Source: Phycisphaerales bacterium (lineage in GTDB: Bacteria > Planctomycetota > Phycisphaerae > Phycisphaerales > SM1A02). Taken from it: DNA of 34,040 nucleotides. The position numbers and the translations under genes were made by a program. Location of the stretch: positions 1 through 34,040 of the forward strand of contig VEQS01000008.1 of assembly GCA_018883105.1 (NCBI GenBank), read 5' to 3'. How positions within the stretch are numbered: position 1 is the stretch's first letter; each line of letters opens with the position of its first letter. Positions 23,628-34,040 of the stretch are shown here, in pieces. The notes beneath the pieces are model-generated. The model did not search any database. It saw only the letters and a list, made by a program, of their open reading frames with translations, and had not been told where the DNA came from.

Positions 23628-24284
23628 ATGGATGCCGCGGCCACCATCTCCCGGCTCACGCTGCGGGCGCGGCAGGCAATCCACCGCGATGCGCTGGCCT
23701 TCGTCGCCGAGCGCTACGGACTCGACGCCGCGCAATCCGAGGCGCTGGCGGCGATCCCGGTGCGGTGGAAGCGCGCGCGGGGATCCAGTGCCTTCTACCT
23801 GCGCGCCGCGCATGGGTTTGCGGGCCCGCACATCCTGGTGCGCGTCCCCGGCGGGGCGCGTGTGCGCTGGCATACCTATCGCCGCGCCCGGGCGCGGTTC
23901 GCCACGCCGCCCGGAGGCATCGACCTCGCCGTACCGACGTTCGCGGGTGCCGTGCTGGTGCACGAACTGACCCACGCCCTGCAGCACGGCGTGGCCGGGG
24001 AGCCGAAGCGCCGCTACAGCGAGGTGGAGACCACGGAGAACGAGCTCGAGTACGTCCGCCGGCGTGCGCCGGACGCGTACGCGCGGCTCGTCCCCGTCCT
24101 GCCGAAGCCGCGTCGCCGCGCGGGACGCCCGGCCGCACCGCCGACGGCGCTCGCCGCGCTGCGCGCCGCGGTGCTGCGCATGGCGGCGCGCGTGGTGGGA
24201 AGCCTCACGTCGGCTGCGCCGCCAGTGCCGCCACCGCCGAGGTCCCGGCGACGAACCCGCTCGCCCAGGCCCACTGGAAGTTGA
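23628..24284 (+). CDS. small HExxH-motif metallopeptidase-like protein
   Basis: A 218-residue protein with a zinc-peptidase signature, AVLVHELTHALQHG (HExxH, near residue 108-112), followed 20 residues later by YSEVETTENELEYV, whose Glu could be the third zinc ligand. The first 60 residues are helical and Arg/Ala-rich; no signal peptide or membrane helix is seen, so it should be cytoplasmic. I do not recognise the family; it resembles small domain-of-unknown-function peptidases. An alternative GTG at 23607 would overlap the HIT stop as GTGA. The C-terminus (PPVPPPPRSRRRTRSPRPTGS) is low-complexity and overlaps the BaiN-type gene on the other strand by 80 bp, so the true domain probably ends earlier. 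Confidence 0.7.
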   Translation: MDAAATISRLTLRARQAIHRDALAFVAERYGLDAAQSEALAAIPVRWKRARGSSAFYLRAAHGFAGPHILVRVPGGARVRWHTYRRARARFATPPGGIDLAVPTFAGAVLVHELTHALQHGVAGEPKRRYSEVETTENELEYVRRRAPDAYARLVPVLPKPRRRAGRPAAPPTALAALRAAVLRMAARVVGSLTSAAPPVPPPPRSRRRTRSPRPTGS

Positions 24285-25461
24285 ACCCGCCGATCCGGCC
24301 GTCGACGTCGAGCACCTCGCCGGCGAGGTGAAGCCCCGGCACCACGCGGCTCTCCATCGTCTCGAGCCGAACTTCCGACAGCGGCACGCCGCCCGCGGTC
24401 GCCTCGGCGAACGTGAAGCCGCGGTCGCCGGTCACCGGGAGCGGCGTGGCGCCGACGAGCTGCGCCAGCCCCCGGCGGCGATCGCGCGCCAGCTGCTGCG
24501 GCGTGGCGGCGGCATCGACGGCAGCGGCCTCGCACAGGGCACGCACCAGGCGTTCCGGAAGCCATGCGCGCAGCACGGCGCCGACGCCCCGGCCCTTCGC
24601 CTCGACCAGCGCGCGGTCGATCGCCTCGGCCTCCATGCCCGGCGTCCATGACAGCTCGAGCCGCGCCTGCGGGTCGTCGACACGTGCCATCGTCCAGTGG
24701 CGGCTGATGTTCAGGACCGACGGGCCGCTGAGCCCGAAGTGCGTGCAGAGCGTGCTGTCGGCGAACGACACGAGCCGCTTGCCGCCGCCCGACCGCAGCA
24801 CCAGTTCCGCCGGCACGGTCAGCCCGCTGAGTTCCGTGATCCAGTGCCCCTCCGGAAGCCTGAGCGGCACGAGCGATGGGATCACGTGGTCGGTCACGCG
24901 GTGGCCGAGCCCGGCCGCGATCGCAAGCCCCACGCCGTCCGAGCCGGACTTCGGGAGCGCCTTGCCGCCGGTCGCGAGCACCACGCGGCGTGCCACATGC
25001 TCGCCGGTCGCGGTGCGGATCCGGAAGCCGCCGTCCATCGGCGCCACCGACTCCACGCGCTCCGGGTGCCGCAGGTGCACGCCGGCGCGGCGCGCGGCGG
25101 CAAGAAGCGCGTCGAGCACCGTGTGCGCATCGTCGGTGACCGGGAAGAGCTTTCCCGTTTCCTCGCGCTTCAGCTCGACGCCGAGCTCCGCGAAGAACCC
25201 GACCGTCTCCTCGACGCCGAAGCGCCGCAGCACCTTGCGGATCGCGGGCGCGGTGCTGCCGGCGTAGTCCCCTTCCTCGACGCGCCAGTGCGTGACGTTG
25301 CAGCGCCCGCCGCCCGCCACCAGGATCTTCGCGCCGAGCTTCCGTGCGCCGTCGAAGGCGGCGATGCGCGCCGGCACGCCGGCGCCCGCCGCACCGCGCC
25401 CCGCCCAGATCGCCGCGAAGAGCCCCGCCGCGCCGGCGCCGACCACGGCGACGTCAAGCAT
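24205..25461 (-). CDS. BaiN/HI0933-type FAD-dependent oxidoreductase
   Basis: A 418-residue flavoprotein of the HI0933/BaiN (RdsA) family. The dinucleotide loop is at the very start (LDVAVVGAGAAGLFAAIWAG, GxGxxG), then the family signature AGGGRCNVTH (about residues 50-59), VVLATGGKALPKSGSDGVG, FTFAEATAGGVPLSEV and the C-terminal FAD contact LHLAGEVLDVDGRIGGFNFQWAWASGFVAG. One characterised member reduces a bile-acid intermediate; the natural substrate in most bacteria is unknown. ATG 25461 is chosen since the fold begins at once; a GTG at 25491 overlapping the upstream stop (GTGA) would add 10 residues. It is the last gene of the recG run. Its 3' end overlaps the HExxH gene by 80 bp. Confidence 0.9.
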   Translation of the reverse strand: MLDVAVVGAGAAGLFAAIWAGRGAAGAGVPARIAAFDGARKLGAKILVAGGGRCNVTHWRVEEGDYAGSTAPAIRKVLRRFGVEETVGFFAELGVELKREETGKLFPVTDDAHTVLDALLAAARRAGVHLRHPERVESVAPMDGGFRIRTATGEHVARRVVLATGGKALPKSGSDGVGLAIAAGLGHRVTDHVIPSLVPLRLPEGHWITELSGLTVPAELVLRSGGGKRLVSFADSTLCTHFGLSGPSVLNISRHWTMARVDDPQARLELSWTPGMEAEAIDRALVEAKGRGVGAVLRAWLPERLVRALCEAAAVDAAATPQQLARDRRRGLAQLVGATPLPVTGDRGFTFAEATAGGVPLSEVRLETMESRVVPGLHLAGEVLDVDGRIGGFNFQWAWASGFVAGTSAVAALAAQPT

Positions 25462-25487
25462 GCCTTCACCCGCCGACGCCGCGTCGG

Positions 25488-27263
25488 TCACGGCGCCTTC
25501 GCGGGCGCGGCGTCCGCGGCCGATGCGGGCCAGCGGTCGCCCAGCGCGACCGCAAGCTCGATGTCCCGGGCCTTCTGCGCGGAGTGGCGCAGGGTGACCT
25601 TCGTTCCCTTCGCGCCCTCGGCCAGGAAGCGCGCCGCGATCGACGACTGTCCCGGAACGCCGCCCGGGAAGCGCAGCGCGTGCGGACGGAATGCCTGCGG
25701 CTCGAACGTGCGGTCCGTGCGCCGGCCGAGCGGGCCCCCGGCGACCACCGTCGCGCCCGTGAGCTCGAGCACGTCGTCGAGCCCGATCCCGCGGTCCGCG
25801 GCGCGCGCCGTGCGCGAGGGGATCAGGCGGTCGTTCGCCACCGTGACGGTGACTTCCCACAGGCCGGGCGACAGCTCCTTCGTCTCCGCCGACTCGAAGC
25901 GCAGCAGCGGCATCTGGTCGGCGTGGTACATGGTGAAGGCGAAGTTGCGGTGCAGCTCCTCCTCGACCATGAAGGGCGGCGGGATGCGCGCGCTGAACTT
26001 CGTGCCGCCGCCGACGAGCACCGTGCCGTGCTCGGGGTGCTGCACCTCCTTCATGGGCGACTTCGTCTGGTCGAAGAGCATGCGCCGCTCCCACAGGCGG
26101 CGCTCCTCGTCGCTCGGGTCCTGGCCGTCCTGCATCAGGCGCTTCTCGGTCCAGAGCTCGTTGGTCAGGCTGATGACGCCGAGGCCCTCGGCCAGCCAGT
26201 TCACCGCGCCGCCGTGCACGGTGTAGAGGTCCTTGTGGATGACCATGGGGCGATAGAAGGGCAGCATCGCGGCGCCGGTGTCCTGGATGCGACGGTAGGT
26301 CGCGGCGTCCTCGCCGGGGTAGTCCTTGTCGCGGAACGGCGCGCCCGGGCCGCGCAGGATCATGCCGCCCGTGTTGTGGTAGCACTGCGCCGCGGCGAGG
26401 TTCGGCTTCGCAAGCAGCCAGTCGGCCACCGCGCGGGTCTCCGGGTAGCAGAGCGGGTACGCGCCCGCGCCCCCCTGGACGTTCTCCGGCTCCCAGCCGC
26501 TCGGGAAGTTCCGGTTCATGTCGTAGCCGCCGGGACCGTCCTCGTTGATGCGGCCGTCGCCGTCGTTGTCGACGCCTTCCTGGCCGGCCATCGACCATTC
26601 GCCGTACTCGCGCGTGCCGTCGGCACGCGGTTCCGGCGAGACGCGCTCCATGCGGTCCGGGTCGCGCGGGTCGCGGCGGTGCGTGCCGAACGGGTCGCGC
26701 CGCCACATCATGGTGATGTGGCCGTCGCCGTCGAGGTCGTCGGGCCCGTCCTCGTCGTCGGTGCCGTCGCCGTCGTCGTCGGTCGGCTGCTGGCCGGTGC
26801 GCGCCGAGTGCGGCGTGTGCGCGTCGGCGAACCACGTCGCCCGCCCATCGGGATTGACGAGCGGGACCAGCAGGAACACGCAGCGGTCGACGAGCTCGGT
26901 GATGCGGGGCACGGTGCCGTACGCGCCGAGCAGGTACCAGGCCGTGTAGGTCACGGTCTCGCTGGCCTGGATCTCGTTGGCGTGGATCGACCCGTCGATG
27001 TAGATCGCCGGCTTGTCGCGCTCGTCGCCGGTGCGCGGGTTCGCGATCACCATGGCGAGCATGGGGCGCCCCAGCGACGACGTGCCGATCCGCTCCACGC
27101 GGCAGAGCTCGGGGTACGCCTCGGCCAGGCGGAACATCTGGTCGCAGATGCCGTCGGTGTCGACGAAGCGGTTGAACCGCAGGTCGACCTTCGAGGGAAT
27201 CTGCTGCTGGGCGGCGCAGGTGCCGGCAAGGGCCAGCGCGGCGACGGCGGCGAGGGCACGCAT
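25488..27263 (-). CDS. secreted M14 zinc carboxypeptidase (active-type)
   Basis: A 591-residue exported peptidase of family M14. A signal peptide, MRALAAVAALALAGTCAAQQ, is followed by the catalytic domain (about 27-400). Zinc ligands are His94 and Glu97 (DGSIHANEIQASE, HxxE) and His296 (QCYHNTGGMIL); substrate contacts Asn250-Arg251 (YDMNRNFPSGW) and the catalytic Glu369 (SLTNELW) are kept. Two acidic DxDxDG stretches (162-181 and 232-243) look like calcium sites inserted in the fold. The C-terminal 200 residues are beta-rich, probably an accessory domain. It should trim C-terminal residues from peptides outside the cytoplasm. The start overlaps the upstream paralogue's stop (TGATG) and has a strong AGGAGGT. 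Confidence 0.92.
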   Translation of the reverse strand: MRALAAVAALALAGTCAAQQQIPSKVDLRFNRFVDTDGICDQMFRLAEAYPELCRVERIGTSSLGRPMLAMVIANPRTGDERDKPAIYIDGSIHANEIQASETVTYTAWYLLGAYGTVPRITELVDRCVFLLVPLVNPDGRATWFADAHTPHSARTGQQPTDDDGDGTDDEDGPDDLDGDGHITMMWRRDPFGTHRRDPRDPDRMERVSPEPRADGTREYGEWSMAGQEGVDNDGDGRINEDGPGGYDMNRNFPSGWEPENVQGGAGAYPLCYPETRAVADWLLAKPNLAAAQCYHNTGGMILRGPGAPFRDKDYPGEDAATYRRIQDTGAAMLPFYRPMVIHKDLYTVHGGAVNWLAEGLGVISLTNELWTEKRLMQDGQDPSDEERRLWERRMLFDQTKSPMKEVQHPEHGTVLVGGGTKFSARIPPPFMVEEELHRNFAFTMYHADQMPLLRFESAETKELSPGLWEVTVTVANDRLIPSRTARAADRGIGLDDVLELTGATVVAGGPLGRRTDRTFEPQAFRPHALRFPGGVPGQSSIAARFLAEGAKGTKVTLRHSAQKARDIELAVALGDRWPASAADAAPAKAP

Positions 27264-28963
27264 CAGCGCACCTCCTCCGCGGGCACGGAGACGCCGCCGC
27301 GGAACGCATGCCGTTCGACGGCCTTGCCTGCGAAGAGGAGCTCCACCACGATGGTCTCGTCGTCCGGCGCGTTCACGATCCACGAGCACGGGCGCGTGGT
27401 GCCCGGGTCGATGCCGCGCACGATGTCGACGCGGCGCCCGGACTTCACGCGGTCGGCAGGCACCGAGATGCGCACCACGTGCGCGGGGGTCACGCCTTCG
27501 GCGCGTCCGCCGCGCATCACCGACGGCAGGCGGCCGGTGTTCGAGAGCGCCGCGTCGATCCGCCAGAGCGACGGCCCGGCGCGTTCGATGGTCGGCGTCG
27601 AGATCGAGACCTTCGGCCGCGCCTCCGCGACGCGCCCGAGGAACGCGACGAGCTTCGCCGACATCGGCGCCACGTCGGCGAGCGGCGGGTTCTCGCGGAA
27701 GCCCGGCACCCAGCCGCCGACCTCCACCTCGCCGAGCTGCGGATGCTGCTGGCGCGTCCACGGCACGAATCCGGCGCCCTCGCGGGCACGGTCGCTGTAC
27801 TCGAGCCACGCGGCGGCCGACTCGTCCGCGGGCTTCGGCGCCTTCGGGTCCCTGGCGGGCGTCCCGTCCGGGGGCGGCGGCGCGTCCGGGCGGCCCCAGA
27901 GCGTCGTCGCGAAGGCGGGCATGCCACGCTGCGCGTTGAGCCAGGCCACCAGGCTGCCCGCGGTGTCGGCGCCGTCGGCGCGCGACTGGCCGGTGAGCTC
28001 ACGGTAGGCCTTGGCCAGTTCTCCGTAGGCCGCGGCGTCGCCCTCGTCGAGGACCGACGGCATGCCGCCGGGCGTGCGCGACTTGGCATCCGGAACGTTC
28101 ACCACGGTGTCGTGGCGGCCGATCACGAGCGCGGCGAAGAGCTGCGGGTTGGCGATGACGAGGTCCGCGATCGCCTTGCTCTCGATGGCGATCAGCGGGT
28201 AGACGCCTGCCTCGTCCTCGAACTCCGGCCAGCGGTGCGGGAAGTTGCGCTCCGGGTCGATGCCGCCCGGCCAGTCCTCGGCCATGCGGCCGTCGGCGTC
28301 GGCGTCGATGCCCTCGGTCCACACGGTCCATTCCGCGAGCTGCCCCGCGGCTGCGTCCGGCGACTTGAGGAGCCGCGGTTCCGCGGGGTCGGCAACCTGC
28401 GTCGGCTTGCGCCAGGGCGGCACGGTGCCCGACGCGCGCATCTGGGTGATGAGCCCGTCGCCGTTCAGGTCCCGCGGCGGGTCCTCCTCGCCGTAGCCGT
28501 CCTTGTCGTTGTCGTGCGCCACGGCGTTGCCAGACGAGGCACGGCGCGGGCCGCGGACGAACCGCTCCGCGGCATCGGGATTGGCGCAGGGCACCACGTG
28601 CACCGTGATGCCGCGCAGCGACTCCGGCCGGTCGCGCAGGATTCCCTCGGCGATCGCGAGCGCCGCCTCGGTGCTCGACCAGCGGTGGCCATCCATGCCG
28701 CCCACCACGAGCATCGCCGGCCGGCGTCCGGCGGCGGAGGGGTCGTCGGCGATGGTCAGCAGGTGGATGGGGTACCCGCCGACGCTCGTCGCCAGGATCT
28801 GCGACCCGACGCGGTCGGGCCACGTGGCCTTCAGCGCCGCGACCGCTTCGGCGAGCCCGGCGGCGTCGCGGCGCTCGCGCAGCGCGACCGCCGGGGGCGG
28901 CGCGGCAGCGGCGGGCTCCGCCTGGGCGAGGAGCATCGAGACGATCGAGCAGGTGATCAGCAT
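27263..28963 (-). CDS. M14 carboxypeptidase paralogue with lost catalytic residues
   Basis: A 566-residue protein with a signal peptide (MLITCSIVSMLLAQAEPAAA) and the same layout as its downstream neighbour, including two acidic DxDxDG stretches (151-170 and 220-230) and a beta-rich C-terminus. Side by side, the key sites differ. HxxE is Asp91-Gly-His-Arg94 (GGMDGHRWSSTEA), Asn-Arg is Glu238-Arg239 (GIDPERNFPHRW), and the catalytic Glu is Thr354 (FATTLW against LTNELW). Only the third ligand His (His284, VIGRHDTVV) seems kept. It is therefore probably a pseudopeptidase that still binds peptides or its partner. No Shine-Dalgarno sequence precedes the ATG, only a C/T-rich stretch. It starts 31 nt after the DUF3299 stop. 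Confidence 0.85.
   Translation of the reverse strand: MLITCSIVSMLLAQAEPAAAAPPPAVALRERRDAAGLAEAVAALKATWPDRVGSQILATSVGGYPIHLLTIADDPSAAGRRPAMLVVGGMDGHRWSSTEAALAIAEGILRDRPESLRGITVHVVPCANPDAAERFVRGPRRASSGNAVAHDNDKDGYGEEDPPRDLNGDGLITQMRASGTVPPWRKPTQVADPAEPRLLKSPDAAAGQLAEWTVWTEGIDADADGRMAEDWPGGIDPERNFPHRWPEFEDEAGVYPLIAIESKAIADLVIANPQLFAALVIGRHDTVVNVPDAKSRTPGGMPSVLDEGDAAAYGELAKAYRELTGQSRADGADTAGSLVAWLNAQRGMPAFATTLWGRPDAPPPPDGTPARDPKAPKPADESAAAWLEYSDRAREGAGFVPWTRQQHPQLGEVEVGGWVPGFRENPPLADVAPMSAKLVAFLGRVAEARPKVSISTPTIERAGPSLWRIDAALSNTGRLPSVMRGGRAEGVTPAHVVRISVPADRVKSGRRVDIVRGIDPGTTRPCSWIVNAPDDETIVVELLFAGKAVERHAFRGGVSVPAEEVR
27270..27276 (-). promoter_or_regulatory. strong ribosome-binding site of the active M14 gene
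   Basis: AGGAGGT on the minus strand, 6 nt before the ATG at 27263, within the last codons of the upstream paralogue. It fixes the start and allows higher translation than the upstream gene, whose start has no such sequence. Confidence 0.75.
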
Positions 28964-28994
28964 GGGAGGGAGGGTTCCGGCGGTCGCGCGGGAT

Positions 28995-29780
28995 TCAGAG
29001 CTCGGGACGCGCGCCCTGGACCATCGAGGCATCCTCGAGGATGTAGAGCCCGACGAGCCAGTTCTCGACGAGGTAGGGATCGATCTTCAGCCTGCCCTTC
29101 ACGCCGCCGAAGTTGAACGTCGCGTGGGCGCCGGAACGCTTCGCGGGCTCGAGGAGCTTCACCTCGATGGCGTCGTAGGGCGTGGGCGGCACGCCGATGC
29201 AGCAGCCGTCCCACTGGTTGAGCATCACCAGGAGTTCCTTGGTCTCGCTCACCATCAGCGGGAACGCGAGGTATCCCTCGACCTGCACCCACGCGCCGTC
29301 AAGCATCGCGACTCGCTGGGGCAGGTCATGCTCGTTGAGCCGCGGGATGTACGACTCCGACGCGCTCGCCAGGCACTCCCAGCTCATGCGATATGGATTC
29401 TCGGCGGTGCCCTCGCCGCGGATCTCGTACTTGCCGTCGGCGTAGAGGAGGCGCTCGCCGCTCTTCTCGTCGGTGCGCGGGACGATGTTCCCCGGCACGA
29501 TGCGCGCGCTGGCGATGCTGCGTCCGAGCCCGAGGTCGACCGCGTCGGGCGCGCGGACGACGGGGGCCTTCGGGGCGGGCGCGGCGGGCGCCGCCGGTGC
29601 TGCCGGGGCCGCCGGCGCTGCCGGGGCCGCCGGCGTGGCGTTCGCCGGCGCCGTGGGTGCGGGCGTCGAGGCCGGGGTCGGCGCCGACGCGGTGCGCTCG
29701 GGCCGTCCCGTGAGGAGGAGCGCCGCCGCCGCACCGATGAGGAGCGCGCCGACGATCCAGACGAGGCGCATGCCGCTCAC
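28995..29780 (-). CDS. DUF3299 protein with Ala/Pro repeat linker
   Basis: A 261-residue exported or membrane-anchored protein. The N-terminal helix MRLVWIVGALLIGAAAALLL is followed by a long Ala/Pro/Thr linker containing APAAPAAPAAPAAP (coded by an 18-bp repeat). The folded C-terminal domain (about 150-255) matches DUF3299: AWVQVEGYLAFPLMVSE, VMLNQWDGCCIGVPPTPYDAIEVKL. Related proteins are encoded with ABC transporters in many bacteria, and the CC pair might bind metal. Start choice: GTG 29780, which overlaps the permease stop as GTGA and is preceded by GAGG; ATG 29771, three codons later, is equally possible. Function unknown. Confidence 0.8.
   Translation of the reverse strand: MSGMRLVWIVGALLIGAAAALLLTGRPERTASAPTPASTPAPTAPANATPAAPAAPAAPAAPAAPAAPAPKAPVVRAPDAVDLGLGRSIASARIVPGNIVPRTDEKSGERLLYADGKYEIRGEGTAENPYRMSWECLASASESYIPRLNEHDLPQRVAMLDGAWVQVEGYLAFPLMVSETKELLVMLNQWDGCCIGVPPTPYDAIEVKLLEPAKRSGAHATFNFGGVKGRLKIDPYLVENWLVGLYILEDASMVQGARPEL
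29590..29635. repeat. 18-bp tandem repeat coding for the Ala/Pro linker
   Basis: Two full near-identical 18-bp units (29590-29607 and 29608-29625, one base different) and ten bases of a third. In the DUF3299 frame each unit codes for two Ala-Ala-Pro triplets. In-frame units suggest the linker length changes by slippage without breaking the protein. Confidence 0.8.
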
Positions 29781-31075
29781 GCCGCGGGCCTCAGGCTCTC
29801 GGCCACGGGCAGGTGGTAGGCGCGCCACGCGGGAAGCAGTCCGGCGAGCGCGCTCAGCGCGACCGCGCCACCCAGGACGATCACCGTGTCGCGGGGGTCG
29901 AGCGCCGGGTCGACCACCAGTCCGATCGAGGCGCGCAGCCACGCGCTCGCGGCGATCCCGCCGACGAGGGCCAGCACCACGCCCGCGGCGGCGCCGGCGA
30001 AGCCGATCAGCAGGCTCTCGGTCACGACCATGCCGAAGATGCGTCCCTGGCTTGCGCCGAGGACGCGCAGCACGGCCACCTGGCGCGCGCGGGCCGCCAT
30101 CGAGTTGTAGAGGGCCAGCATGGTGCTCAGGGCGCTCGACACCAGCACCACCACCGCCATGCCGATGAAGAGCCCGTCGACGTTCGACACGATCGCGAAG
30201 AGCCGCTGGATCTGCTGCGCCGGCTGCGCCACCACGATCGACGTGTCGCGGCGCAGCGTGTCGAACTGCTGCTGCATCGCGGCGCTCGCGTCGCTTCCGG
30301 GCCGCGTGGGCAGGCGGAGCAGGATGCCGGTGATCAGGCGGTCGGCGTCGGTGAGTTCCGCCGCGCCCACCTTGCCGTGCTGTCCATCGCGCTCGCGGCG
30401 GTCAAAGGCATGCAGGATCCAGCTCGACTCGAGGTCGATGAAGAGGGCGCGGTCGTGCGCGCTGCCGGAGGGCTCCAGCACGCCCACCACCTTGAAGGGG
30501 TACTCCGTGTGCACGTGGCCCGCGTGGTCGCCGCCGCCCTCGCGGCTGCCGCCGGAACCGTGCGTCAGGAACACCTCCTGCCCAAGGCGCAGGCCCGAGC
30601 CCTTCGCCGCGGCCGCGCCCAGGACGATCTCGAACGGCCGCTCGAACAGCCGCCCCTCTCGCAGCTTCCATGGCTCGCCGGCCACGGGCTCGAACTTCGT
30701 CAGGAACTCGGTCGACGTCGCCATCGTCGGGTAGCCGCGGTAGCTGTCGCCCTGCTGGGTGGGGATCGCCCACAGCCACGGGAAGGACCCGCGGATCTGC
30801 TGGTACTTGGCCCAGGGAATCGGGTTCGCCGGGGCGTTGGCGTAGAAGATGCCGTTCAGCACCGCAACCAGCGGGCTCGGGTCCGAGCTCACCAGCAGAT
30901 GCGTGTTCCCCGAGCCGCGGTCGAAGGCATCGCGGGCGCTCGAGCGCATGCCGAGCAGGACGAGGAGCAGGCCGACGCTCGTGGCCACCATGCCGATCGT
31001 GATCCACGTCGAGAGCGGCCGCGCCTGCAGGCTGCGGAGGACGATGCGGGTATCGGTGAGGGGGCGGGAGCTCAT
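29777..31075 (-). CDS. ABC transporter permease (FtsX/MacB/LolC type)
   Basis: A 432-residue inner-membrane protein with one N-terminal helix (STWITIGMVATSVGLLLVLLG), a large extracytoplasmic domain (about 45-305) and three C-terminal helices (GLFIGMAVVVLVSSALSTML, LLIGFAGAAAGVVLALVGG, DTVIVLGGAVALSALAGLLP). The conserved RARQVAVLRVLGASQGRIF coupling region before helix 3 is typical of FtsX-domain permeases. A His-rich loop (GGGDHAGHVHTEYPF, near residue 195) lies in the outer domain and may bind metal. These proteins drive mechanical work on envelope substrates rather than uptake. It starts with an ATG overlapping the ATPase stop (ATGA). Confidence 0.9.
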   Translation of the reverse strand: MSSRPLTDTRIVLRSLQARPLSTWITIGMVATSVGLLLVLLGMRSSARDAFDRGSGNTHLLVSSDPSPLVAVLNGIFYANAPANPIPWAKYQQIRGSFPWLWAIPTQQGDSYRGYPTMATSTEFLTKFEPVAGEPWKLREGRLFERPFEIVLGAAAAKGSGLRLGQEVFLTHGSGGSREGGGDHAGHVHTEYPFKVVGVLEPSGSAHDRALFIDLESSWILHAFDRRERDGQHGKVGAAELTDADRLITGILLRLPTRPGSDASAAMQQQFDTLRRDTSIVVAQPAQQIQRLFAIVSNVDGLFIGMAVVVLVSSALSTMLALYNSMAARARQVAVLRVLGASQGRIFGMVVTESLLIGFAGAAAGVVLALVGGIAASAWLRASIGLVVDPALDPRDTVIVLGGAVALSALAGLLPAWRAYHLPVAESLRPAA

Positions 31076-31743
31076 GCGGCAACCTTCCCTACGAAGGCGT
31101 CCACCGTGTCGATGCGCGTGAATCGCGCCCGCATCGCCGGGTCGTGGCTCGTGCAGAGGAGGGCCGCGCCGTTGGCGCGGCACGCGTCCTGGATCAGGTC
31201 CATGGCGGCGACGGCGTTCTCGGGGTCGAGGCTTGCGGTCGGCTCGTCGGCGAGAACGAGCGCCGGCCTCGCGGCGAGCGCCCGGGCCACCGCGACGCGC
31301 TGCTGCTGCCCGACCGACAGGCGGTCGACCGGTGCGGCCGGGTCGGGGATGCCAAGCGACCCAAGCAGTTCCTGCGCACGCGCCGCGTGCGCCGCCGCCG
31401 GCGAATCGCCGAACATCAGCGCGGCCATCACGTTCTCGAGCGCACTGAAGCCCTGCAGCAGGTTGAAGGTCTGGAAGATCATCCCGATCCGCTGCCCGCG
31501 GGCGCGGTCCCGCGCGGCGCCCGCAAGCGCGCTCATCCGGATGCCGGCCACCTCGATCGACCCGGCATCGACGTCGCGCAGCCCGGCGACCAGCTGGAGG
31601 AGCGTGCTCTTGCCGCGGCCCGAGCCGCCTGCGAGCAGGGCCTGCTCGCCTGCGCCGAGCCGGTAGGCCGGCACGTGGAGCGCGAAGCCTCCGCCCCGGT
31701 GGGCGAAGCGCAGGTCGCGGATGTCGAGGGCGGGTTCTGCCAT
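31072..31743 (-). CDS. ABC transporter ATP-binding protein (LolD/MacB type)
   Basis: A 223-residue ATPase. Walker A is AGGSGRGKSTLLQLVAG (residues 38-54), Q-loop IGMIFQTFNLLQGFSALENV, signature DRLSVGQQQRVAVARAL, Walker B ALVLADEPTASLD and switch His TSHD. All ATPase residues are intact, so it should power the permease encoded next to it (ATGA overlap). The spacing of Q-loop and signature is typical of the LolD/MacB subfamily. The ATG lies 9 nt after a TACACT hexamer in the 31-bp gap behind recG, so a second promoter inside the run is likely. Confidence 0.92.
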   Translation of the reverse strand: MAEPALDIRDLRFAHRGGGFALHVPAYRLGAGEQALLAGGSGRGKSTLLQLVAGLRDVDAGSIEVAGIRMSALAGAARDRARGQRIGMIFQTFNLLQGFSALENVMAALMFGDSPAAAHAARAQELLGSLGIPDPAAPVDRLSVGQQQRVAVARALAARPALVLADEPTASLDPENAVAAMDLIQDACRANGAALLCTSHDPAMRARFTRIDTVDAFVGKVAA

Positions 31744-31752
31744 GGGCGGATG

Positions 31753-31758
31753 AGTGTA
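31753..31758 (-). promoter_or_regulatory. candidate -10 box, leaderless start of the ABC genes
   Basis: Minus-strand TACACT preceded by CC, ending 9 nt before the ATG at 31743. The same hexamer at the same spacing precedes the POT gene. It lies in the gap after the recG stop and could start an internal transcript. Confidence 0.42.
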
Positions 31759-31774
31759 GGTCGCGCGCCGGCCG

Positions 31775-33883
31775 CTACGCGACGTCGGCGAGGCCGAGCG
31801 CGTCGCCATAGGTGCGCAGGATCTTGCGCCGGAGCAGGGCATGCTCCGGGGCATCGAGGCCGGGATCGCGGTCCACGATCGCCTTCGCATCGCGTCGGGC
31901 CAGCCGCAGCAGTTCCATGTCGTGCGCCAGGTCCGCGACTCGGAAGGGCGGCAGGCCGCTCTGGCGGCTGCCGAAGAGCTCGCCCGGGCCACGGATCGCC
32001 AGGTCCATCTCGGCGATCTCGAATCCGTCGTCCGTGCCGGCGATCGCCTCCAGGCGCTTCGCGGCATCCTCGGTGGCGGGGTCGCCGATGAAGACGCACA
32101 GGCTGCGGCGGGTGCCGCGCCCGACCCGGCCGCGCAGCTGGTGGAGCTGCGCCAGCCCGAATCGGTCGGCATGCTCGACCACCATCAGCGAGGCGTTGGG
32201 CACGTCGACCCCCACCTCGATCACGACCGTCGCCACCAGCACGTCGAGCTCGGCGCGCCGGAACCGGTCCATCACGGCCTCGCGCGCGTCGCGGTCGAGC
32301 CGGCCGTGCACCACGCCCACGCGCAGGCCGGCGAAGACGCCGTCCGAGAGCGCACGTGACGTGCCCTCGGCATCCTTCAGCCCGTCGGCGCGTTCCTCGA
32401 CCGCCGGCACCACCACGTAGCACTGCTCGCCGCCGTCGATCCGCTCGCGCACGTATCGGTAGACCTCCTGCTCGCGGTCACGGCCCACCACGCGCGTCGC
32501 CACCGGCTGGCGGCCGGCGGGACGGGAACGGATGGTCGACACGTCAAGGTCGCCGAACACCGTCAGGCTCAGCGTGCGCGGGATCGGCGTGGCCGTCATC
32601 ACCAGGACGTGCGGAACCTCGCCGGACGGGCCCGCGGACTTCTCGCGCATCGCGGCGCGCTGCTCGACGCCGAAGCGGTGCTGCTCGTCGATCACCGCGA
32701 GGCCGAGGTTTCGGAACACCGCGCCTTCAAGGAGCAGCGCATGCGTGCCGACGGCCACGTGCGACTCGCCGGATGCGAGGCGCGCGAGCGACTCGCGGCG
32801 CGCCGCCGCCCCGAGGCTGCCGGTCACCAGCTCCACGCGCACGTCGCTTCCGGAGAGGAACCGGCCGATCGACGCCGCGTGCTGCTCGGCAAGCAGCTCG
32901 GTCGGCGCCACCAGGGCGGCCTGCATTCCGGCCGCCACGGCGGCCAACATGCCGTAGAGCGCGACGGCCGTCTTGCCGCTGCCGACGTCGCCCTGCAGCA
33001 GCCGGTTCATCGGCAGCGCCTGCGCGAGGTCCCCGGCGATCTCGCTGCACGCGCGGTCCTGCTCGCCCGTGAACGGCCAGGGGAAGCGCGCGCGGATCCG
33101 TGCGTCGACCGCCTCGTTGACGGGGATGCGCGGGGCACGCGCCTCCGTGCGCATGCGGTGCTTCTTCATCATGACGCCAAGCTGCAGCTGCAGGAACTCC
33201 TCGAAGGCGAGCCGCCTCCGAGCCTCGAGCTGCTCGTCGCGGTCGCGCGGCGCGTGCATGCGGCGCACGCACTCGTCGAGCGGGGGCAGCGCGCGGGACG
33301 CGCGGTATTCGGCCGGCAGCGGATCCTCGAGCTGCGGCAGGATCGCCGGCATCGCGGCCCGGACGGCGCGCTCGATCGCGGCGCTCGCGATCTCCTCGCT
33401 GGCCGGGTAGACGGGCCGCAGCCGCGCCTCGCGCGCGGGCGGCGCGTCGCCGTCGGCCAGCGGTTCCCAGCGCGGGTTCGAGAGCTCGAGGTAGCGCCCG
33501 CGCAGCTTCGCCTGCCCCTGCAGCATGCCGCGCATCCCGGGATGGAGCCTGCCGCGCATCCATGGGGCGTTGAACCACACCGCGCGCACCGTGCCGGTGC
33601 CATCCTCGAAGGTTGCCTCGGTGCGCGGCTTGGGCCGCGGCGCATGGCGGACCGAGGCGACCTCGACCCGCAGCGCGGCGACCGGGCTCTCCCCGCCTTC
33701 GCAGAGGCCAATCAGGTCCGCGACCGACCGCTCGCCGCGATCATCCTCGTAGCGCAGCGGGAAGTGGCGCAGCAGGTCCGCGGCGGTGCGGATCCCCAGG
33801 TGTCCCAGTGCCTCCGACGTGCGCGGCCCGATGCCGGGGATCGCGCCGACGGGCGTGCTCGGCCGCAGGTCGGTGGCAGGCAT
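31775..33883 (-). CDS. recG: ATP-dependent DNA helicase RecG
   Basis: A 702-residue helicase that remodels stalled replication forks and recombination intermediates. An N-terminal helix-hairpin-helix-like start (VGAIPGIGPRTSEALGHLGI) and FPLRYEDDR lead into the OB-fold wedge domain (about 65-160, with FEDGTGTVRAVWFNAPWM). The motor follows: motif I LLQGDVGSGKTAVAL, Ia LVAPTELLAEQHA, motif II VIDEQHRFGV, motif III MTATPIPRTL, then VVHGRLDRDAREAVM, ATVVIEVGVDVPNA and HQLRGRVGRG, and the TRG-like region with FGSRQSGLPPFRVADL. All motifs are intact and the length is normal. ATG 33883 follows TACGAT by 17 nt. The divergent gene on the right begins 28 bp away. Confidence 0.97.
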   Translation of the reverse strand: MPATDLRPSTPVGAIPGIGPRTSEALGHLGIRTAADLLRHFPLRYEDDRGERSVADLIGLCEGGESPVAALRVEVASVRHAPRPKPRTEATFEDGTGTVRAVWFNAPWMRGRLHPGMRGMLQGQAKLRGRYLELSNPRWEPLADGDAPPAREARLRPVYPASEEIASAAIERAVRAAMPAILPQLEDPLPAEYRASRALPPLDECVRRMHAPRDRDEQLEARRRLAFEEFLQLQLGVMMKKHRMRTEARAPRIPVNEAVDARIRARFPWPFTGEQDRACSEIAGDLAQALPMNRLLQGDVGSGKTAVALYGMLAAVAAGMQAALVAPTELLAEQHAASIGRFLSGSDVRVELVTGSLGAAARRESLARLASGESHVAVGTHALLLEGAVFRNLGLAVIDEQHRFGVEQRAAMREKSAGPSGEVPHVLVMTATPIPRTLSLTVFGDLDVSTIRSRPAGRQPVATRVVGRDREQEVYRYVRERIDGGEQCYVVVPAVEERADGLKDAEGTSRALSDGVFAGLRVGVVHGRLDRDAREAVMDRFRRAELDVLVATVVIEVGVDVPNASLMVVEHADRFGLAQLHQLRGRVGRGTRRSLCVFIGDPATEDAAKRLEAIAGTDDGFEIAEMDLAIRGPGELFGSRQSGLPPFRVADLAHDMELLRLARRDAKAIVDRDPGLDAPEHALLRRKILRTYGDALGLADVA

Positions 33884-33894
33884 GGCGGGTTCCG

Positions 33895-33911
33895 GTTCGT
33901 ATCGTACGAAC
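33895..33911. promoter_or_regulatory. palindrome with overlapping divergent -10 boxes
   Basis: GTTCGTATCGTACGAAC: perfect 7-bp arms around a 3-bp centre, lying in the 28-bp gap between recG and the divergent gene. On the plus strand 33900-33905 reads TATCGT, 6 nt before GTG 33912. On the minus strand 33906-33901 reads TACGAT, 17 nt before the recG ATG. A dimeric regulator could bind here and shut both genes. Confidence 0.4.
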
Positions 33912-34040
33912 GTGGCCCGTCGCCCCTTCGATCCCCGGCTTGCGCGCGGCGGGCTGTTCGATCCGGCGCCGGCCGCGGCGCCGGCCGCACCGCGCGCTGA
34001 GGCACCACCCCCGTCCGACGCGATCTCGGTCACCGAGGCC
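33912..34040 (+). CDS. N-terminus of divergent gene, possibly exonuclease VII large subunit
   Basis: Forty-three codons are open from a GTG at 33912 to the right edge. The visible protein starts VARRPFDPRLARGGLFDPAP, continues with a Pro/Ala-rich linker and ends DAISVTEA. The start and the ISVTEA segment resemble planctomycete XseA proteins, where an SVTEL-like text begins the OB-fold domain; the resemblance is from memory and short. Being divergent from recG would fit a DNA-repair gene. No ribosome-binding site can precede the GTG, because the palindrome ends at 33911; a leaderless message is likely. Confidence 0.42.
   Translation, partial: MARRPFDPRLARGGLFDPAPAAAPAAPRAEAPPPSDAISVTEA

Follow-up and report, generated by a model that had tools for sequence, protein, structure and literature searches.

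Why dead copies of enzymes are retained is a general open question, and it is posed anew by two adjacent genes on contig VEQS01000008.1 of a Phycisphaerales bacterium (phylum Planctomycetota, assembly GCA_018883105.1), of which positions 1 to 34,040 were analyzed and are referred to as the window. The two genes encode paralogous proteins with the fold of M14 metallocarboxypeptidases and are located on the minus strand: an upstream pseudo-carboxypeptidase gene (27263..28963, (-); 566 residues), termed the dead copy, and a downstream active M14 zinc carboxypeptidase gene (25488..27263, (-); 591 residues), termed the active copy. An earlier note on this DNA had proposed an enzyme/pseudoenzyme pair, and our analysis supports this proposal. 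We consider it probable that the pair forms a secreted metallocarboxypeptidase in which a catalytic subunit and an obligate dead sister subunit act as one functional unit. We also see a somewhat better than even chance that this represents a two-subunit M14 carboxypeptidase found throughout the phylum, which arose by duplication with complementary loss and in which the dead sister is structural and obligate; it would then be the first M14 pseudopeptidase from bacteria and, for the active-inactive pairs of M16B/MPP, the first counterpart within M14.

Both copies belong to M14 by fold, and one of them also by active site. Pfam M14 (PF00246) matched the dead protein with an E-value of 1e-13 and the active protein with 1e-41; these were the only matches in the 2.76-Mb, 87%-complete genome, and NCBIfam provided no name for either protein. 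The two sequences are 27% identical over 497 columns (BLASTP, E 2e-24), and profile-profile alignment joined them over 514 columns comprising the M14 domain and the tail (E 5e-75). Structure prediction, suggested in the earlier note as a check, resulted in high-confidence AlphaFold2 models, for which 76 dead and 62 active homologues had been aligned (predicted local distance difference test, pLDDT, 94 and predicted template modelling score, pTM, 0.92 for the dead protein; pLDDT 90 and pTM 0.89 for the active protein). Using Foldseek and VIA-align, M14 carboxypeptidases were the best matches of both the dead model (Z ~29, 2.4-2.9 Å over ~270-287 residues) and the active model (Z ~38, 1.7-2.9 Å over ~290-304 residues), in particular carboxypeptidase T and pancreatic carboxypeptidase A (CPA) of subfamily M14A. 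These M14A carboxypeptidases differ from the window's pair in that they are single, self-sufficient enzymes and lack comparable acidic inserts and a comparable beta tail.

Beyond the M14 domain, the paralogues share a signal peptide, acidic loops, and a C-terminal beta-rich tail, as the earlier note had stated. The tails, delimited by the secondary structure of the models, comprise residues about 452-566 of the dead copy (27266..27610, (-)) and about 454-591 of the active copy (25491..25904, (-)) and can be aligned with each other. Loops of the DxDxDG type are present in both proteins. The first set spans residues 151-176 in the dead copy (28436..28513, (-)), where columns are conserved in both copies across the phylum, and residues 162-187 in the active copy (26703..26780, (-)). 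The second loop, EGxDxDxDG in the dead copy, spans residues 217-230 (28274..28315, (-)) and 229-242 (26538..26579, (-)), respectively; conservation among homologues supports it in both proteins, as it does the first loops of the active copy. The dead and active copies have 36 columns in common, which are mostly located in the acidic loops (in dead-copy numbering D151, D153, D155, E160, D161, D165, D169, E217, D220, D222, D224, E229, and D230), in addition to positions in the tail. The DxDxDG pattern suggests that these loops bind calcium.

The active site is where the two proteins part. Residue correspondence was taken from sequence and profile alignment rather than from an atomic overlay, and bovine CPA numbering is used by convention. 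The active copy carries the HxxE zinc motif (His94 and Glu97; 26973..26984, (-)), the third zinc ligand His296 (26376..26378, (-)), and the catalytic Glu369 (26157..26159, (-)); together with the Pfam and structural matches, this residue set predicts a zinc-containing protein with carboxypeptidase activity. In the dead copy, the HxxE is replaced by Asp91...Arg94 (28682..28693, (-)), with D91 corresponding to H94 and R94 to E97; E238-R239 correspond to N250-R251 (Asn144-Arg145 of CPA), and T354 (27902..27904, (-)) corresponds to E369 (Glu270 of CPA). Profile alignment thus confirms the losses of HxxE, Asn250, and Glu369 listed in the earlier note and adds one that had been overlooked: G282 (28118..28120, (-)) occupies the place of the third zinc ligand H296 (His196 of CPA). 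A second HxxE or Glu elsewhere in the dead protein was considered and rejected, as the profile alignment contains none and places D, R, G, and T at the zinc and catalytic positions. The dead copy thus combines the M14 fold with the loss of the zinc and catalytic residues, the combination that defines an M14 pseudopeptidase, and most likely lacks catalytic activity. Since R239 is retained at the position of Arg145, part of the substrate-carboxylate site may survive. Equivalents of CPA Arg127 and Tyr248 could be assigned by spacing alone and were not relied on.

Is this association of a dead with an active copy peculiar to one genome? All genomes that we surveyed are Planctomycetota, many of them incomplete assemblies. 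Within the window's family, the dead protein was matched in 115 of 181 genomes and the active protein in 114 of 181, in 32 of 45 genera each. Because the paralogues cross-match, these tallies are not independent, and the loci themselves were therefore read. An active copy is present in 94 family loci, 91 of which have the dead copy directly upstream on the same strand; of the remaining loci, two end at a contig edge, and one has an inserted gene. A phylum-wide draw yielded matches in 69 of 244 genomes, and 60 loci were read. Wherever the paired active subfamily was present, the dead copy was upstream on the same strand (50 of 50; 47 loci scored by script, the order in L178, L186, and L187 taken from match positions), which brings the total to 141 loci (91 in the family and 50 elsewhere in the phylum). 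The search profile had been built from dead copies and matched active copies strongly as well, so that unpaired active copies would have shown up. In nine further phylum loci, the M14 gene stands alone; these genes belong to other subfamilies, and their site is intact. No neighbour family besides the partner occurred in more than four phylum loci, which leaves the partner as the sole neighbour conserved phylum-wide. The pair thus consists of adjacent genes for an active and a dead homologue that are conserved together, as expected of an active/inactive two-subunit peptidase. The dead gene's position directly upstream in essentially every locus where both are visible, along with a gene fusion in one genus (see below), leads us to regard the pair as probably a single two-part enzyme.

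Conservation within the two groups is markedly different. H94, E97, N250, R251, H296, and E369 are invariant in all 95-97 active sequences that cover them. The universal losses in the dead copies are those of His196 and Glu270: among 118, the third-ligand position is never His (101 carry G there, the others D, S, T, R, or A), and none has the catalytic Glu, whose position is otherwise free to vary. The first ligand position is Asp in every family member and D, H, E, N, A, R, or G across the phylum, while the second HxxE position varies even within the family (H, R, N, and others). HxxE survives in only two dead copies, neither of which has the third His or the Glu. The possibility raised in the earlier note that the DxxR/Thr replacements are themselves preserved was not borne out: as the replacing residues vary among dead copies, they are not under selection as such, and a new conserved site made of them can be dismissed.

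This pattern bears on two further explanations. One is that the dead copy has acquired a different catalytic activity through new residues, for which Asp91, Asp285, and His243 are candidates, being near-invariant in the dead copies of the window's family. They are not all kept across the phylum, whereas the pairing is, and we consider a new activity very improbable. The other sees in the dead copy a binding protein that acts independently, such as a peptide or cell-wall receptor, and that only shares a pathway and an operon with the active copy and forms no stable complex with it. The Arg at the Arg145 position, retained in 77 of 118 dead copies, together with the same three near-invariant residues, makes a ligand site in the dead copy possible. 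Yet the old cleft is free to vary phylum-wide, and strict gene order and the fusion favour contact between the proteins, which makes an independent binder rather improbable in our view. Because the cleft is so variable, the loops and the tail, rather than the cleft, are favoured as the working parts of a dead subunit.

The dead copy might also simply be a duplicate in decay. It does evolve faster than its partner (mean column identity 32% vs 59%), and its sequence is split over two frames in two single genomes (L185:2901-4584(+) and L216:3509-5232(+)), owing to a frameshift that may be real or an assembly error. However, the median ratio of nonsynonymous to synonymous substitution rates (dN/dS) over 64 close pairs was about 0.12 for the dead copy, with a maximum of 0.26, compared to 0.076 for the active copy; full-length frames are found in nearly all loci across many families, and non-catalytic residues are invariant. 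These values and this conservation rule out a pseudogene in progress, to which we attach next to no credence. The homologue survey outlined in the earlier note therefore came out in favour of the pair: the dead copy stands next to the active one in essentially every locus where both are visible and is under purifying selection.

The two proteins also appear to have evolved together. Pairwise distances among dead and among active copies were correlated across 94 loci (0.82, compared to a maximum of 0.14 in 500 permutations), a correlation partly explained by the shared ancestry of the genomes. In a tree of 116 sequences, the dead and the active label each changed only once, and their sub-groups match; L152 and L200 lie apart from their taxonomic neighbours in both halves. 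The single branch leading to the dead group has moderate support (87), and its most divergent sequences (L174, L176, L181, and L187) are placed apart from the main group, towards the unpaired enzymes. The dead copy therefore probably arose only once, although this is not certain. In addition, dead and active copies are fused in two genomes of one genus (L090:4917-8681(+) and L202:946-3333(-)). In G176, a single open frame of 1255 amino acids encodes the dead half followed by the active half, and no signal peptide separates them; G175 has the same join in a partial frame. A natural gene fusion is commonly read as a sign that the corresponding separate proteins interact.

The junction of the two genes in the window points to coupled expression. 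Stop and start codons share one base in TGATG (27261..27265, (-)), which suggests translational coupling, and the strong Shine-Dalgarno sequence GGAGGAGGTG of the active gene (27269..27278, (-)) is located within the 3' end of the dead gene. No such sequence precedes the dead gene, and its same-genus homologues likewise lack one; the start at 28963 is backed by signal-peptide-like N-termini at the equal position in these homologues. Coordinates, strand, and the TGATG motif hence agree with the earlier note, which had reported a one-base overlap and a strong ribosome-binding site before the active copy alone. Overlaps of a comparable kind are present at most homologous junctions: among 109 with an assignable start, the overlap is 4 bp long in 71 and 1 bp long in 15, counts that carry some bias, as the choice of start favoured ATG and a Shine-Dalgarno sequence. 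As a separate observation, CCTCCCTCCC, the complement of a Shine-Dalgarno sequence, is found directly before the dead gene start (window 28964-28973, (-)).

An upstream, coupled gene would also suit a dedicated chaperone or inhibitor. The dead copy, made first, would then aid folding or block the active cleft until export or removal, as a propeptide-like guard standing outside the working enzyme. Zymogens of M14A rely on pro-domains, and neither protein of the window has a pro-domain ahead of the M14 fold. On the other hand, a signal peptide of its own, a full M14 domain, Ca-type loops, and a tail under strong purifying selection exceed what a guard needs, and the fusion in G175 and G176 joins both halves, although cleavage of the fused product is possible. 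Taken together, we regard the guard as unlikely.

Complementary conservation provides a further argument for a division of labour within the two-subunit enzyme. R176, W402, E414, G477, and W528 are conserved in dead copies and drift in paired active copies, and the nine unpaired active enzymes keep them almost throughout (9, 9, 9, 9, and 8 of 9, respectively). In the paired active copies of the window's family, R176 is replaced by Trp, E414 by Leu, and W528 mostly by Phe; outside the family, G477 is replaced in most, and R176, W402, E414, and W528 are often kept. Conversely, R426, R439, and N440 are present in every covered paired active copy, and H438 and H447 nearly so; this set, which is located at and on the final M14-domain helix, is absent or rare in unpaired enzymes. 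Arg426 and the 'HRN...HA' helix (residues 426-448; 25920..25988, (-)), conserved only in paired active copies, may therefore be regarded as a candidate partner interface. The pattern of drift and gain fits a duplication followed by a division of roles and would mark a candidate contact surface.

A plausible course of events can be outlined from these data. An M14 enzyme with DxDxDG loops, probably stabilized by calcium, and a beta-rich tail would have been duplicated in ancient times. One copy would have given up its chemistry and kept the loop and tail features of the unpaired active relatives; the other would have kept its chemistry and acquired the new invariant motif on the last M14 helix, and in many lineages its tail features would have drifted. 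The start/stop overlap would couple the synthesis of both chains, which would then be exported to the periplasm or the extracellular space and most likely associate after export, with one subunit alone doing the cutting. The dead subunit may hold, tether, position, or present the substrate, stabilize the catalytic subunit, or do both. Translational coupling, co-evolution, and the natural fusion lend indirect support to the heterodimer that the earlier note had envisaged, and they suggest, at the level of sequence, that the dead and the active protein associate physically.

Several observations weigh against this reading. Coupling and fusion are also compatible with two proteins that act in one pathway and do not touch each other. 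Variation in the pseudo-active cleft, illustrated by the range of residues at the first ligand position, argues against one conserved ligand there. Many active copies outside the family retain the ancestral tail residues, and the division of roles is thus only partial. Moreover, in the family locus with the inserted gene (G063, L135:1-4744), a 6-phosphogluconate dehydrogenase gene separates the active gene from a tail fragment of the dead copy, which lies ~2.3 kb upstream.

Similar arrangements are known from other peptidases. The M16B pairs and MPP depend for their function on a dead homologue, which prokaryotes encode together with the active one (PMC11266112, PMC8960859); pull-downs back the M16B pairing (PMC8960859). 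Like the window's pair, the M16B heterodimers Sph2681/Sph2682, mitochondrial MPP alpha/beta, and the lanthipeptide peptidases PttP1/PttP2 combine an active with a dead homologue, in prokaryotes in a two-gene operon, and single-chain versions exist among their relatives, as with the fusion described here. They differ in having the M16 fold and HxxEH, whereas the window's pair has the M14 fold, an exopeptidase-type site, Ca-type loops, and the beta tail. Pfam assigns both proteins to M14 alone, and neither contains HxxEH; the pair is not M16B, and the likeness to M16B and MPP would be one of function, not of membership. Closest within M14 is carboxypeptidase D (M14B), which has active and inactive M14 domains in one protein; its third domain, in which almost none of the active-site residues are left, may present substrate (PMC11266112). 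The pair is not carboxypeptidase D either: that protein is eukaryotic and unites three domains, transthyretin-like units, and a membrane segment in one chain, whereas the window has two separate, coupled bacterial genes instead of tandem carboxypeptidase units in one chain, and such genes are fused only in one genus. The M14 pseudopeptidases covered in a 2024 review are AEBP1, CPXM1, CPXM2, the third domain of carboxypeptidase D (CPD-III), and Ecm14, none of them bacterial (PMC11266112). AEBP1/ACLP, CPXM1, CPXM2, and Ecm14 are likewise secreted proteins with an M14 fold and lost catalytic residues; they differ in being eukaryotic, in having no co-encoded active partner, and in that most keep HxxE. 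M14 carboxypeptidases on cohesin-dockerin scaffolds have been reported from freshwater Planctomycetes, in passages that do not describe the present pair (PMC6461901). We found no paper on bacterial active/inactive M14 pairs in the open-access literature, with subscription papers outside the scope of the search.

In the window, the pair is part of a same-strand run (24205-34033, (-)) that encodes RecG, an LolD-like ABC ATPase, an FtsX/MacB-like permease, a small secreted protein without a Pfam match, the M14 pair, and an HI0933-like oxidoreductase. Members of this run recur in ~20 to 50 family loci. As none of the other members is conserved phylum-wide, they were rejected as operon partners that would point to a pathway. 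A scan of genome contigs with one protein of the pair returned close relatives alone. Plasmids were searched for pairs outside the phylum; apart from partial matches elsewhere, this yielded two separate M14 relatives from the archaeon Halomontanus. The two Halomontanus rarus proteins are encoded on a megaplasmid (L219:4923-6584(+)) and are ~26% identical to the pair; the one that was aligned has an intact HxxE, third His, and Glu. Relatives are also encoded on contigs titled 'Chitinophaga pinensis' and 'Candidatus Kuenenia' (L043 and L044), names of metagenome-assembled genomes that look wrong or like nearest-reference labels.

With regard to annotation, the label 'zinc carboxypeptidase' on both genes is misleading for one of them. 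The M14 pair adds to the question of why dead enzyme copies are retained a case in which one dead paralogue has remained coupled to the active one in many families within a single phylum. The natural fusions and the unpaired intact relatives represent built-in controls, by means of which the role of the pseudoenzyme is directly testable with two soluble proteins of moderate size.

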